Shown in pieces: positions 53,964-59,449 of a stretch of 64,000 nt of DNA. The DNA comes from Cytobacillus gottheilii (lineage in GTDB: Bacteria; Bacillota; Bacilli; Bacillales; Cytobacillaceae). Position 1 is the stretch's first letter, and each line of letters begins with the position of its first letter. The position numbers were made by a program, and so were the translations under genes. The notes under the pieces are model-generated. The model was not told the origin of the DNA. It did no database searches and saw only the letters and a list, made by a program, of their open reading frames with translations. The stretch is taken from assembly GCF_900166665.1 (NCBI RefSeq), contig NZ_LT800494.1, forward strand, positions 86,459-150,458. The letters are read 5' to 3'.

Positions 53964-54443
53964 ATGAAAATTACCATCATATCCGTCGGAAAACTAAAAG
54001 AAAAATACCTAAAACAAGGCATAGACGAATACCTAAAACGCCTCACAGCCTACGCCAACGTCAACATCATCGAAGTCCCTGACGAAAAAGCACCAGAAAA
54101 CATGAGCCCAGCCGAAGAAGAAGAAGTCAAAAACAAAGAAGGCAAAAAAATCCTCTCCCACATCAGCCAGGACACCTACGTTATTACCCTGGAAATAGGC
54201 GGGAAAATGCTTACCTCTGAACAACTCGCTGAAAAGCTTGATAGCCTTGCTACATATGGGAACAGCAAAATTGCCTTTGTTATTGGCGGATCACTTGGAC
54301 TTAGTGATGAAGTCAAGGCTGCCAGCAAGTTTGCACTGTCTTTTTCAAAAATGACGTTCCCACATCAGCTTATGCGGCTGGTGTTGGTGGAGCAGGTTTA
54401 TCGGAGTTTTCGGATTAATCGGGGGGAACCTTATCATAAGTAA
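53964..54443 (+). CDS. rlmH: 23S rRNA (pseudouridine-1915-N3)-methyltransferase RlmH
   Basis: A SPOUT-class SAM methyltransferase of 159 residues acting on pseudouridine 1915 in helix 69 of 23S rRNA. Family markers are [21 protein letters not shown] (in part), [12 protein letters not shown] and the C-terminal [20 protein letters not shown] (in part) with GEPYHK at the end. Also called yydA in B. subtilis; it is the last conserved-core gene of the window. Confidence 0.98.
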
Positions 54444-54511
54444 GTGATTTTTTTCGAATAGATATTGTTACCATTTAATTTTTAAAAGAAAATTGAAAAT
54501 GAACCAATCTT

Positions 54512-54542
54512 AAAAAGGGATGAACATGACTCATCCCTTTTT
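54512..54542. terminator. Bidirectional terminator between rlmH and the AIPR/Mrr pair
   Basis: Perfect 12-bp stem AAAAAGGGATGA / TCATCCCTTTTT with a 7-base loop; convergent genes on both sides. Confidence 0.93.
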
Positions 54543-54546
54543 AGAA

Positions 54547-55383
54547 TTAATCAAATAATTCTAATGATGGGGTTAAACAGAACTTTAAATCATTAGCTTT
54601 TTGCAAACCTATGTGATGATTAATCATTAGATCAACTAATTGATTCCCATCAATAAGTATGATTCCGCGCTCTTCACTTTTCAATTTTGCCTTATTCGTA
54701 TAACTAGAGGTAGTGACGAAATAAGCACCATTGTTATGTTTTTGGCTCCATGCTCCAATAAAATCCCGAATTTCTTGTTCACCTACTAGATTATTTTCTG
54801 AATATCTTTTAATTTGAACGGGTATTTCCCCTTGTTTGAGTAAGGTTCTATATAGTAGACCATCAATACCACCATCCCCGCTTTTTTTCGTAACCTCACC
54901 GTAGGGTGCTTCATTTGCTCGTACTAACACCTGTATTACTAATGACTCAAAATTATAGGGGTTCATATTCATTAGTAATGACTTAAGATATTTTTTTAAA
55001 TGAATTAAATACTCATCATAAGATTTAATTAATGAATTGAGTGCCTCATAATGTTTACTTGCAAATGGAGCCTCCAGTGTTTGCAACTTTTCTGAAGTTT
55101 CCTTTTGAAGCTGATTACTCCAAAAATCATTGATGTTTGAATCTGGATTAATCATTAATCCCCTACCATAATCTGTTAGTAGGAGTAAACCTCCGTCTAG
55201 CTCCTTTAAAATATTAAGTTGAAAAGACTTTTCAAGAATCGGATTGACCTCATAATCCTCAATGTCTTCGTCCAAATCGCTTTTAATATTTCTAAACAGT
55301 ATTTCCTTAGTACATGATGTCTCACTGACATTCCTTAAAATTGATTTTAAAACATCAACAACAAAATCATTCATTGTTAACAT
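54547..55383 (-). CDS. Mrr-like restriction endonuclease domain protein
   Basis: A 278-residue protein with an N-terminal alpha/beta region that may be a winged helix (about 1-85), a coiled linker, and a C-terminal Mrr-type PD-(D/E)XK domain. Counting from the TTG alternative start, the active-site residues are E151 (FESLVIQVL), D179 (GDGGIDG) and Q195-x-K197 (VQIKRY); ILIDGNQLVDLM follows as in Mrr proteins. Mrr enzymes cleave modified or foreign DNA. The ATG at 55383 overlaps the upstream AIPR gene by 17 bases (a TTG at 55398 is also possible), so the two are translationally coupled. Specificity unknown. Confidence 0.88.
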   Translation of the reverse strand: MLTMNDFVVDVLKSILRNVSETSCTKEILFRNIKSDLDEDIEDYEVNPILEKSFQLNILKELDGGLLLLTDYGRGLMINPDSNINDFWSNQLQKETSEKLQTLEAPFASKHYEALNSLIKSYDEYLIHLKKYLKSLLMNMNPYNFESLVIQVLVRANEAPYGEVTKKSGDGGIDGLLYRTLLKQGEIPVQIKRYSENNLVGEQEIRDFIGAWSQKHNNGAYFVTTSSYTNKAKLKSEERGIILIDGNQLVDLMINHHIGLQKANDLKFCLTPSLELFD

Positions 55384-56818
55384 TTTCTCTTTCTTCAATG
55401 CTCTGTCTGACTTGGTCCATCGTTAATAAACAATAGTTCCAGTGCTCATTGCTTTTGGCTACTTTATCAACATTTTCGTTTCTTGCTTTAGTTACTAGAT
55501 AACTAACAAGGGGCTCAATCATTTCTTCAAGTTCTTTATGGTGATCAGGATCAAAACCATCTATCCATTTATAATATCCGTCGTCATCCTTGGTAACTAG
55601 CATCCGGAATGAACCTATAATAGGATGTACTAATCCAGAAGGAACATCAAATTTCATACCGTTTAAGGTAGTTTTCTGCCCATCAGAATAAGTAGTAATA
55701 TTACGGAAATTTTTATATATCTCCTTTTTGTCTGATTTAGAAAAACCAATAAGTGCATAGTTGCCAGAGCTATTTGAGTCGGTAGCACCGACTCTATTGT
55801 ATATATCAGGTATATTTTTCTCCAAGAATGTATATATAGAAAAAATTCCGGGAATTATTCCTGCCATTTTTACATATTCAGAATCACGTTCTTCTTCAGC
55901 TGCACTTTCTACTTCTTGAATATATGCTTTTATTATTGGATCGGCTCCTGAGGCCCATTTCATTGGTGGTACTGAAGGTTTACGACTATATTTAGACTTT
56001 GATGAATATTTAGGAGTTCTTTCGAGATTAAATAAATCTAATAAACGAATTATATTTTCAACAGGTAACATCTTAGAGCCATCTTCCATTTTTTCGAATT
56101 GTTTGTACATTATTCTATTTGCAAATGGAAGATTTGATAAAAGGTCCTTAAGTATATCAAATCCACCTTGTAAATTTACAATTGAACGTGTAAGAACCTG
56201 AGCAGAAGTATTCCTTGCTTCGGCCAAGCGGGAAACATCTGTGAAATTTACAGTAATTTCAAATCTTACAAAAGCATCGAGGATTTCTTCATTCTTTCTA
56301 TAATCCATCACTGTGTTTTTTATGATTTTATAAGTATGCCCCCCATCGATGTTTCCCTCATTTTCTTTATCCATAACAATTTCCAAAACTTCAGGATTGA
56401 GATCAGTTTCATTTTCAAAAACTACATCATGAAGAATAGCAACCGTATGAGCAACTAAAACGATTCCTCTGTTCAATAAGTAGAAGGCTTGGTTGTGAGG
56501 GCGGCCATCTTCCGCAATTTCAGTATTTTTTAAACTTTGAGCTATTCTTCTTGATGGAGTGGTTTTAATATTTTGTTCGCGTGGATTCTTTTTCATAGGA
56601 ATGGTTATTTCATCTCCTAATCCTAGATCCATAACATGGACAAATGCAGAGTAAATGAGAGTGTGGTCCCAGTTGGTTGGGTCTGGCATATGGTCGTGAT
56701 TTGAGCGAAATCTCCTTAAATCATGTGGATTATACATGGTGGTTATTTGGTCACTACGAACTCTAAGAATGAAATTTTCTTCATCCTCCTCAAAGCGTTT
56801 TAGCATAATAGGCATCAT
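55367..56818 (-). CDS. AIPR-family (abortive infection phage resistance) protein
   Basis: A 483-residue protein whose middle matches the AIPR pattern: NRGIVLVA (116-123), GNIDGGHTYKII (155-166, family form NGxQT) and ARNTSAQVLTRSIVNL (201-216). AIPR proteins are found in phage-defence loci; the molecular activity is not established. The C-terminal half (about 280-483) resembles nothing I can name. GGGAGAG lies before the two ATG codons at 56818/56815. It is first in a two-gene unit with the Mrr-like nuclease, and the flanking DNA is AT-rich, suggesting acquisition by transfer. Confidence 0.8.
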   Translation of the reverse strand: MMPIMLKRFEEDEENFILRVRSDQITTMYNPHDLRRFRSNHDHMPDPTNWDHTLIYSAFVHVMDLGLGDEITIPMKKNPREQNIKTTPSRRIAQSLKNTEIAEDGRPHNQAFYLLNRGIVLVAHTVAILHDVVFENETDLNPEVLEIVMDKENEGNIDGGHTYKIIKNTVMDYRKNEEILDAFVRFEITVNFTDVSRLAEARNTSAQVLTRSIVNLQGGFDILKDLLSNLPFANRIMYKQFEKMEDGSKMLPVENIIRLLDLFNLERTPKYSSKSKYSRKPSVPPMKWASGADPIIKAYIQEVESAAEEERDSEYVKMAGIIPGIFSIYTFLEKNIPDIYNRVGATDSNSSGNYALIGFSKSDKKEIYKNFRNITTYSDGQKTTLNGMKFDVPSGLVHPIIGSFRMLVTKDDDGYYKWIDGFDPDHHKELEEMIEPLVSYLVTKARNENVDKVAKSNEHWNYCLLTMDQVRQSIEERENVNNE

Positions 56819-57089
56819 GATATCTCTCCCTATGTTTAATGAAAATTAATTCTTTAAACTGATTATATCAATTATTCTTTGAAAAGCTCATTAACAAAAT
56901 AACTTTAAATATGGTATTTATTAATTAATAATTAATGAAAATCTATGGCTCAATGCAACTGATTAATAAGTCTTAGAAACAATATGATAGCATCTTACTT
57001 TTTCTATTTCTCATTTAGATATATAACGGTGAAGCGTACCACAAATAGTTACAGATAAAAATTAAACAAGATAGATACCCTCTTAATAA
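56819..57089. other. AT-rich intergenic stretch before the AIPR gene
   Basis: About 270 bases, very AT-rich (for example around 56920-56940), expected to carry the AIPR promoter on the minus strand. I see no gene, repeat or clear promoter. Confidence 0.5.
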
Positions 57090-57136
57090 AAACAAAATAA
57101 AACTAGAGGAGACCGTTAGCACACATGGGTCTCCTC
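57090..57136 (-). terminator. Terminator after the VOC pseudogene
   Basis: Minus strand: GAGGAGACC arm (57114-57106) pairs with GGTCTCCTC (57135-57127), then a T-rich tail. Confidence 0.75.
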
Positions 57137-57144
57137 AAACCTTT

Positions 57145-57494
57145 TTAAACCACCACCTCACTCATCAACGCATGCCTATTCCCCTCACGATCCTCAAAAA
57201 ACACCATCCAAGTCTCAGTTTTCCACATTTTAGCCACCATATGAGGTTCATCAACAAACCGTACATCTGCAGCTGCTAATCGCTCATAAGAATCCCTAAT
57301 ATCACTCACCTGAAAATAAACAACTGAACTCGCATGTGCAAATTCTTTTTTCTCTGGAGGTGATAGCAAAAGTCTCAAACCATTGCTTTCAAAAAATGCC
57401 ATATTATCCATGTGCCTAGTTTCTGTTCATAGAATTCAATAGCTCTATCTAAATCTTTAACAGGTATGCCAATTTGTCCAAGTTTTTGAATCAT
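57145..57494 (-). pseudogene. Broken VOC-family (glyoxalase-like) gene
   Basis: Two reading frames together resemble one VOC (vicinal oxygen chelate) subunit. Frame 1 from ATG 57494 (AAAGGGG upstream) reads MIQKLGQIGIPVKDLDRAIE then FYEQKLG. Near 57412-57418 it shifts to the frame that continues DNMAFFESNGLRLLLSPPE and ends at 57145. The 7-12 residues normally found between these halves are missing, so a short deletion with frameshift has occurred. The downstream half alone could still be translated from the ATG at 57411 (88 residues) but lacks the first beta-alpha module with its metal ligand. Confidence 0.75.
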
Positions 57495-57520
57495 CTTTCA
57501 TTCCCCTTTCAATTAACCCC

Positions 57521-59449
57521 TTAATACTCTCCACGTTCTTCAGCAACCATTCCCGTTCGTGGCGACAAATCCTCATAAGCATCCGATCTATCCAAACGCT
57601 CTTTAAAATACTGATTCAATTCCGAATCCGTACAAAAGACAAAGCAGCCTTTCTGCCCTCTAGTCATTAAGGTTCGGTACGTATTTCGGATAATCCTGTC
57701 TGCTAAAGCTTGTGCTTCATCAGGATTTTCTTTTGCCAGAGTTTTGATACCTTTTAAAGACTGATCTGTTTTAGCACGTTTTGTGTAGTCTGTGATTACT
57801 TCGCCATCTTGACACACAAGATCAGGTCCAATAATGATGCCGACATAATCAAATTCCAATCCTTGTGATGTGTGGATACACCCAGCTTCGTAGACGGAGT
57901 CCTGGTCGATGGCCCATATGCTGTCAGAGAGATTCCAGCTGATTTTAAAGTTGTGTTCAGGTATTTCAATGTCTTTATGAAGAGTGCTGTTCCGTCCTTT
58001 TTTCGGCCATTCCCAGCAGTAGCCCGCTAGTATACGAGATTTGTTATTTTTCTTATTGAGGTCCTCAATTTCTTTGAGCATGGCATTTGGATCATCGTAT
58101 ACTCTGAAATCGTAGTCCAGACCGCGGTCATTGGCGTTGGCTGTCTCTCTGATTTGCAATACATCATCCAGCCAAGCAATATAGGCATCCGATCCGTCGC
58201 AGCGGAATTGGGAAACCAGTTTGCCCTGAATGAGTTCGGCATTTAATAGATTTGCATACTTTTTTATTACATCCACACTGCCAATGTCTTTTAATGTGAC
58301 TTTCTGATCTTCATCAATAAAGAAAATCGTGAATTTAGCAGAATGGATGACTTCTTTAATTTGATTTTCTCCTTTATTGCTGAAGAGACCTGATTTTTCA
58401 TTAAGGCGGTGTGCTTCATCGATAATGAGTACGTCAAATTCATTTGCTTCTGATTCAGTAAAGCTGCCCGATCCTTTGAAAAGGTGATCAATTTGTGTTT
58501 TCTTGATCGTTCCTTTTAATTTTGAAGCATAGACGTTCCGCGGTGCGGAGTTTTTGGATACATATAGAGCGGTTAATTCTTGGTTAATGAGATTTACAAG
58601 CAGGTTTATGGCCATAACAGACTTGCCTGTTCCTGGTCCGCCTTCAATGACTATAACGGTTTTCTGATTATGTTTAATAGATTCCAATGCCAGATGATAG
58701 GCATCTTCATAGAATACTTTCTGCTCATCAATCAGGACGAATTCTTGGTTTCCCTTTAGCATGCTTGCGAGCGTGTCCTGCAGCGATTTGGAAGGACGAA
58801 TTTTTCCATGCTCAATCTGGTAGATTAACTGGTTCTGATCACCAAAACGAACGTACTTTTTTATGAAGTCTCTTAATCTCTGGATTTCTCCTTTTGTAAA
58901 AAGAGGGGCTTTGGCCAAATGAGCATCATAGTGAGAATCCATCAACGGATCATTGTCTGCTTTCCGGTAGTTATGTAAATATGCACATGGGTTTAAAACG
59001 ATTTGCTGATCTTGTACATTTTGATTAAAATCCTCAATTAAGGCTGCGTAAGACCATGCTTGATAAGAGGGGTGTGTGACAGTGCGTTTCCCTCCGCCAA
59101 GATAAGTAGACACAAGTGCATCCTTAGAGGTTACCTTTTCTGCCTCTGACCATTGTTTCAACTCCACAATGACCACGTGATCCTGACTGCCATCGTGGCC
59201 AGCAACCAAAAAATCTACGCGTTTTGATGTGTTGGGAATCTTAAACTCTATAGCTACGGATGTATCATCAGGAATTTCTATATCCTGCATAACGTTCGAC
59301 ATGCGCTGCAGGGAATTTTCCCATGACGTAATTTCACTTTTAGAAGTCCGTCCAATTTTCTTTTGATAAGACTCGTAAAGACGTTCAACGAGGAGCTCGT
59401 TTGTTACGTCAGATATAAATTCCAATTTTGTCGCTTCATATATGATCAA
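57521..59449 (-). CDS. RecB-like nuclease fused to DUF2075 helicase (DNA/RNA helicase)
   Basis: A 642-residue two-part protein. The N-terminal domain (about 60-140) has a PD-(D/E)XK pattern: D79, E96-L-K98 and Q130-x3-Y134, the QxxxY feature of RecB-family nucleases. The C-terminal superfamily 1 ATPase (DUF2075) has Walker A GGPGTGKS (270-277), Walker B IIDEAH (342-347), SQFRCDG (413-419), HTSQGLEFDYV (526-536) and the arginine-finger-type YRTLMTRGQKG (591-601). Similar nuclease-helicases occur in phage-defence islands and the Schlafen-like group 3. The gene stands between a broken VOC gene and a lipoprotein gene. Role in defence or repair is inference. Confidence 0.85.
   Translation of the reverse strand: MIIYEATKLEFISDVTNELLVERLYESYQKKIGRTSKSEITSWENSLQRMSNVMQDIEIPDDTSVAIEFKIPNTSKRVDFLVAGHDGSQDHVVIVELKQWSEAEKVTSKDALVSTYLGGGKRTVTHPSYQAWSYAALIEDFNQNVQDQQIVLNPCAYLHNYRKADNDPLMDSHYDAHLAKAPLFTKGEIQRLRDFIKKYVRFGDQNQLIYQIEHGKIRPSKSLQDTLASMLKGNQEFVLIDEQKVFYEDAYHLALESIKHNQKTVIVIEGGPGTGKSVMAINLLVNLINQELTALYVSKNSAPRNVYASKLKGTIKKTQIDHLFKGSGSFTESEANEFDVLIIDEAHRLNEKSGLFSNKGENQIKEVIHSAKFTIFFIDEDQKVTLKDIGSVDVIKKYANLLNAELIQGKLVSQFRCDGSDAYIAWLDDVLQIRETANANDRGLDYDFRVYDDPNAMLKEIEDLNKKNNKSRILAGYCWEWPKKGRNSTLHKDIEIPEHNFKISWNLSDSIWAIDQDSVYEAGCIHTSQGLEFDYVGIIIGPDLVCQDGEVITDYTKRAKTDQSLKGIKTLAKENPDEAQALADRIIRNTYRTLMTRGQKGCFVFCTDSELNQYFKERLDRSDAYEDLSPRTGMVAEERGEY

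Follow-up and report, generated by a model that had tools for sequence, protein, structure and literature searches.

We find that an AIPR-family gene and a gene for an Mrr-type nuclease together form the cargo of a small cassette at the 3' end of rlmH in the window, that is, the whole 64-kb stretch of DNA that was analysed. Judging from their sequences, the two products probably work together in defence against phages or other foreign DNA. The reading that we favour, with somewhat better than even confidence, is that of a self-contained module, gated by AIPR and executed by the Mrr-type nuclease, on a recombinase-less SCC-like cassette. SCC-like islands at rlmH have already been described (PMC10061031); what is new here is therefore not the kind of site but the cargo, AIPR plus Mrr being a new combination of known parts. 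The earlier note on this DNA knew of no named system of this composition, and we likewise found none in the open-licence literature. The features of the locus are as follows.

53964 to 54443, forward strand: rlmH (23S rRNA methyltransferase), an ORF whose 3' end is the insertion site
54426 to 54443, forward strand: left att-like site GAACCTTATCATAAGTAA, overlapping the last codons of rlmH, weight-matrix score 29.0
54426 to 57048, no strand: whole cassette, about 2.6 kb, from the GC profile, the ORF list and synteny with G033
54511 to 54543, reverse strand: hairpin just 3' of the nuclease stop codon, its 3' arm containing U5, from RNA folding
54547 to 55374, reverse strand: Mrr_cat nuclease gene, 275 aa from ATG 55374, with a PF04471 match
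55367 to 56818, reverse strand: AIPR-family gene, 483 aa, from the ORF list, with a PF10592 match
57031 to 57048, forward strand: right att-like site GAAGCGTACCACAAATAG, weight-matrix score 22.2

The AIPR-nuclease DNA has an SCC-type arrangement at rlmH, the gene at which methicillin-resistance cassettes insert in staphylococci. It is flanked on both sides by repeats of the rlmH 3' end, at 54426 and 57031, and the next-best site in the 64-kb window after these two scores 11.7. Of the 36 rlmH 3' ends of the genus, 30 went into the weight matrix, the one at 54426 included, and the other six did not fit the pattern used to build it; rlmH itself is present in all 36 genomes. The cassette has a GC content of about 33%, compared with about 39-43% in the nearby DNA on either side. 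No ORF of 50 aa or more lies between AIPR and the right att-like site, and the additional ORFs in the cassette are all antisense, within the AIPR and nuclease genes. The recombinase by which SCC-like elements are also recognized, a large serine recombinase (ccr), was not found in the cassette; matches to PF07508 in the same genome lie at 1.84 Mb and, in two pieces, at 4.15 Mb of a 4.71-Mb contig, with rlmH at 0.14 Mb.

The nearest relative, G033, is 94.8% identical to the window over 1973 bases up to 54436, inside the last rlmH codons, and then diverges. Synteny restarts at 57095, and between these points G033 carries a different island of about 34 kb (L260-L261) with a large serine recombinase and three strong att-like sites. 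The island also contains an inverted, diverged rlmH-like gene, and the island's far junction showed no att-like site. An empty rlmH site was not found, G033 being occupied by the other island and its rlmH end altered. Across the genus (36 genomes, L203-L238), 35 further sites scoring at least 19 lie on the rlmH strand up to 8 kb downstream, with one such site on the other strand and none in 1.92 Mb of random sequence. They occur in 22 of the 36 genomes, the window's included. In three of these 22 (genomes G015, G022 and G025; loci L206, L232 and L238), rlmH is followed downstream by a second rlmH-like gene with about 55% identity, and the extra site forms the end of that gene. We regard the cassette as probably movable; in this genus, small cassettes accumulate at rlmH, and some of them carry defence genes. 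Passages of one study describe comparable SCC-like islands at rlmH in other Bacillota, with tandem repeats of the rlmH end and conflict genes (PMC10061031). The site directly after rlmH had been called variable in the earlier note; the position was right, relatives carry defence genes there, and the claim can now be put more strongly, since there is an att-like repeat on each side of the module.

Downstream of rlmH, relatives carry what looks like a varied cargo that includes defence genes, transporters and enzymes. In a scan of at most three ORFs per genome in 35 genomes, from which the window genome and the AIPR and nuclease of G028 were left out, first genes after rlmH match models of HamA and HamB (Hachiman), ThsA, DRT2, a DNA methylase and a type I specificity subunit; one of 100 scanned proteins matched each of these families, which are among the 25 listed of 111 matching families. 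A GmrSD_N protein directly follows rlmH in G024. Just right of the cassette, the window has a Schlafen-group-3 helicase gene (57521-59449, reverse strand) with AbiO/Nhi-like matches in PADLOC and, at its N-terminus, a NERD match below threshold; G023, G001 and G026 have relatives of this helicase (61-76%) no more than 8 kb from rlmH. A glyoxalase-like gene at 57145-57500, also on the reverse strand, looks broken near its start, its 88-aa ORF covering no more of the 121-position Pfam model than positions 54-118.

With three copies found, the module is rare; in one of them the AIPR gene is broken. G028, another species of the genus, has the pair at rlmH (AIPR 69% and nuclease 48% identical to those of the window), inside a cassette with sites at positions 20 and 2786 of the oriented locus L209. 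Counting non-overlapping ORFs of at least 90 aa, both cassettes (54426-57031 in the window, 20-2786 in G028) contain only the AIPR and nuclease genes; their right ends share a stretch of 39 bases with 85% identity. The third copy, from a draft genome of Clostridium polynesiense, lies near a SinI-type endonuclease and a C5 methyltransferase; its AIPR gene (67-70% identical) is frameshifted into two pieces, and its nuclease ORF (46%) is intact. A decayed trace was found in another family, where G133 has 166 bases 88% identical to the window nuclease, ending within 2 bases of a 16-base att-like copy of the rlmH end. The rlmH region of G133 (L239, 6520-9523) also holds Thoeris ThsA (E 4.1e-188), ThsB and a TIR protein near this fragment.

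The earlier note's view of the two genes as a unit is borne out by gene order and by phylogeny. The nuclease gene directly follows the AIPR gene, with overlapping frames, in all three copies (window, G028 and, with its frameshifted AIPR gene, C. polynesiense). The three form one clade with full support both in the nuclease tree (57 rows, with the G133 fragment and duplicate loci omitted) and in the AIPR tree (a quick tree of 69 rows, with one C. polynesiense piece dropped and six other sequences added). The branching order of the pairs is also the same, G028 being nearer to Clostridium than to the window, with an inner fork of 100/93 for the nuclease and 87 in the AIPR quick tree.

Both frames lie where the earlier note had placed them, according to the ORF list of the window; of the 17-base overlap claimed there, the overlap itself stands and the length probably does not. 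Besides ATG 55374, the nuclease could start at 55383 or 55398; ATG 55383 gives an overlap of 17 nt with AIPR and ATG 55374 one of 8 nt. Because the C. polynesiense nuclease ORF begins at the equivalent of ATG 55374 (MNDY/MNDF), with the same 8-nt ATGAATGA overlap, the overlap in the window is probably 8 nt as well; in G028 it is 11 nt. On the AIPR side, the G028 relative starts at the equivalent of a second ATG, at 56815; ORF starts in our scripts were assigned mechanically. Codon identities between the window and G028, 49% at third and 85% at second positions for AIPR and 43% and 71% for the nuclease, indicate protein-level constraint on both genes. The hairpin downstream of the nuclease (folding of 54500-54560 gives -22.2 kcal/mol and z -4.72, equalled by none of 200 shuffles) is probably a terminator and could serve both strands. 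It is absent from the list given by a consensus terminator scan, and promoter-like sites stayed below the shuffle level (9 versus 14.5).

The window nuclease belongs to the Mrr family of PD-(D/E)XK nucleases by its Mrr_cat domain (PF04471, E 2.4e-24, 86.1 bits against a cut-off of 21) together with the residues E, D and QxK. These residues (E151, D175 and D179 in (G/H)DGGIDG, and Q195-x-K197) are invariant in the three aligned nucleases, in keeping with the catalytic pattern that the earlier note had read from the letters. In PADLOC the protein matches mREase_IV (E 1.7e-22), Type II methyl-directed enzymes, the candidate system PDC-S02 and, weakly, LmuA. The catalytic domain spans residues 143-258 in the numbering of the 283-aa ORF, and the region N-terminal to it matches no Pfam family. 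Solved structures gave only weak hits, to AspBHI (E 0.21) and to the winged-helix protein F93 (E 0.33), the latter, very weak match falling in the N-terminus. Of the 30 listed among 58 plasmid matches, 29 begin no earlier than residue 107 and the remaining one begins at 82; a few genome matches extend back to residues 62-94.

Conservation within the three pairs bears on which protein would read the target. AIPR is 69-77% identical (for C. polynesiense, over the downstream piece only), and its first 72 residues are 54% identical between the window and G028; the catalytic domain of the nuclease is 59-69% identical, and its N-terminal ~110 residues are only 29-42%. Since AIPR is the most conserved part and the nuclease N-terminus the most variable, target recognition more likely sits in the nuclease N-terminus. 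The earlier note had offered AIPR as a possible specificity factor; these values do not support that role, AIPR being the conserved partner, and AIPR as the variable specificity subunit was rejected.

AIPR matches PF10592 with E 1.9e-15 and 57.8 bits (Pfam cut-off 25), which places it in the family, and it matches no PADLOC, NCBIfam or PHROGs model and no solved structure at E<=1. Our alignment of 64 rows contains 57 of the best 80 loci and five of the six viral ones, selected by hand; the C. polynesiense gene, being broken, was entered as two pieces. The motifs DGGHT and NPR each occur in 62 of 62 aligned rows, the window's included, most rows having been retrieved by patterns that contain DGGHT. 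Published passages describe the AIPR family as bearing an N-terminal HEPN toxin domain with the motif Rx4-6H (PMC3506569). By a motif test, which is not a test of fold, no such pattern is common to the AIPR N-termini of the window and G028; the sole shared match is RGIVLVAH at 117, which overlaps the NRG motif, and Rx4-6H occurs anywhere in the sequence in 18 of 62 rows. A HEPN toxin in AIPR was therefore rejected, the motif not being conserved. In the parts of the literature available to us, AIPR proteins are described as encoded in many restriction-modification operons (PMC2292703; PMC3506569), a link that goes back to at least 2008 (PMC2292703), and a figure legend lists AIPR among the domains of P4 satellites (PMC9122126). 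A published activity for AIPR proteins was not found in the open-licence literature.

A possible clue to what AIPR does comes from DndB. The AIPR motif DGGHT occupies the place of DGQHR in DndB, and an alignment of AIPR against nine DndBs gave a weak match (hhalign E 0.015), colinear over 96 columns. Controls gave 0.24 for AIPR against Mrr, the sole AIPR control, and 0.12 and 0.19 for the other Mrr controls; against two near-identical DndBs the match was lost (E 0.54). No similarity was found between AIPR and GmrS (hhalign E 0.74); DndB and GmrS match at E 4.8e-6. AIPR could, by sequence, be a distant relative of the DGQHR/ParB-like DndB. Two neighbouring DndB-family genes lie elsewhere in the window genome (G000:C4:2666840-2668829; L272 and L274). 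In GmrSD, BrxU and SspE, according to passages of the respective papers, a ParB/Srx-like NTPase domain controls the nuclease (PMC4619093, PMC10952713, PMC13251355).

We propose that AIPR and the Mrr-type nuclease would form one functional complex, in which AIPR acts as a gate, a nucleotide- or DNA-state-dependent switch, and the nuclease recognizes its target via the divergent N-terminal domain and then cuts. The assignment of the gate to AIPR and of reading and cutting to the nuclease follows the conservation pattern, the weak likeness to DndB and the analogy with GmrSD, BrxU and SspE. The gate, the NTP and the trigger are inferred, and for the gate the AIPR-DndB similarity is only suggestive. 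As the cassette contains no partner methyltransferase, the host's own DNA might be spared in either of two ways: only modified or foreign DNA would be recognized, as by Type IV enzymes, or AIPR would license the nuclease only during infection. A Type IV system would cut modified DNA and have no cognate methyltransferase; no methyltransferase lies in the window and G028 cassettes, and a C5 methyltransferase lies near the C. polynesiense copy. Restriction-modification of Types I-III was rejected for the same two cassettes, which hold AIPR and the nuclease and no methyltransferase. A more detailed version, which we put forward tentatively and think rather less probable than the module reading as such, is that AIPR is a ParB/Srx-type NTP switch and the pair a new NTP-gated restriction system, with Mrr replacing HNH, specificity in the nuclease N-terminus, and a two-gene SCC-like cassette mobilized in trans.

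Among the best 80 of 176 AIPR relatives (one genome per species, some contigs ending soon after AIPR), Mrr lies directly beside AIPR in two, C. polynesiense and L118; in a third, L095, a single methylase-like gene separates them. L118, an Oscillospiraceae MAG, pairs AIPR with a HARE-HTH-Mrr nuclease, its HARE-HTH match being below the Pfam cut-off. Its AIPR falls well outside the three-member clade and its nuclease falls outside with moderate support (90/78), so the combination probably arose at least twice. Of 398 genomes of the phylum, 22 have AIPR, and Mrr lies within the ~1.5-kb flanks only in the window genome. AIPR relatives occur in three of 151 relatives (window, G028 and, at 36%, G005) and, at E<=1e-10, in five of 397 genomes drawn from the order, namely the window and four at 31-36% identity. 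The earlier note's fixed coupling is thus not supported for AIPR proteins generally; by its own criterion, homologues that are rarely adjacent, a general coupling would be refuted. With Mrr adjoining AIPR in only two of the best 80 relatives, the coupling marks a rare clade and one probably independent pairing, and AIPR must do something without Mrr.

These counts also favour the foremost alternative, which we nevertheless think unlikely, that the nuclease is an ordinary Type IV (modification-dependent) enzyme acting alone and AIPR a separate abortive-infection gene, the two being co-carried without physical partnership since each would benefit the cassette. Mrr without AIPR is common (25 of the 398 phylum genomes match the nuclease at E<=1e-12, and of these only the window genome is among the 22 AIPR carriers), and AIPR without an Mrr neighbour is the rule in the sets examined. 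Against simple co-carriage speak the overlapping frames in three of three clade members, the congruent trees, the pair as the only cargo of two cassettes, and the second AIPR-Mrr pairing outside the clade (L118).

A toxin-antitoxin-like arrangement, in which the nuclease attacks host DNA, AIPR restrains it, and infection or loss of the cassette frees it, appears quite unlikely. The genes do overlap, with the putative antidote first, and a small mobile cassette would presumably profit from addiction. However, the frameshifted AIPR beside an intact nuclease ORF in the C. polynesiense draft argues against AIPR as an obligate antidote, although a mistake in the draft or poor translation of the nuclease might account for it, and most AIPR relatives examined have no adjoining Mrr nuclease.

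Least probable is that AIPR serves chiefly to regulate transcription of the module in the manner of DndB, with the nuclease as sole effector: DndB is described, in the passages available, as binding the promoter of its own operon (PMC4507180), AIPR has a weak similarity to DndB, and the divergent HTH_3 (Cro/C1-type) regulator found near many AIPR relatives (26 of 44 upstream ORFs scanned, candidates picked from 86 loci) is missing in all three clade members, which have no divergent ORF upstream of AIPR, but AIPR, with 483 aa, is the conserved partner, and relatives with an HTH regulator of their own would not obviously need AIPR as one.

AIPR genes on plasmids were seen next to a small divergent HTH gene in L034, L035 and L037-L039; among these is a 5.6-kb Enterococcus plasmid on which AIPR is one of five annotated genes. 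AIPR is followed by a DGQHR-motif gene in L072 (5914-8263) and L077 (5605-8264), probably the two DndB-family members counted among the AIPR neighbour families, which were taken from 27 downstream proteins selected by length and strand. A phage-borne module was rejected: phage records gave one AIPR match (27%) and two nuclease matches (32-33%). Viral contigs gave no match to the window AIPR as query and no nuclease relative; with the AIPR alignment as query they gave six AIPR relatives at 22-29%.

The pair, a natural two-gene unit making up the whole cargo of a 2.6-kb cassette, is a minimal object for learning what AIPR does. It resembles three groups of known systems, each in part. With GmrSD, BrxU and SspE, as far as these are described in the passages cited above, it would share the logic of a DGQQR-type NTPase gating a nuclease, AIPR having DGGHT in a comparable place; it differs from them in that AIPR has no detected similarity to GmrS and the nuclease is Mrr, not HNH. 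With Mrr-family Type IV enzymes it shares the catalytic domain, the motifs and the mREase_IV match, whereas the N-terminal region of the window nuclease is without a Pfam match. With SCC and SCC-like islands of staphylococci and other Bacillota, as portrayed in parts of PMC10061031, the locus shares integration at the rlmH 3' end, end repeats, tandem composites and restriction-type cargo, but the window and G028 cassettes are only 2.6-2.8 kb long, recombinase-less and limited to two genes.
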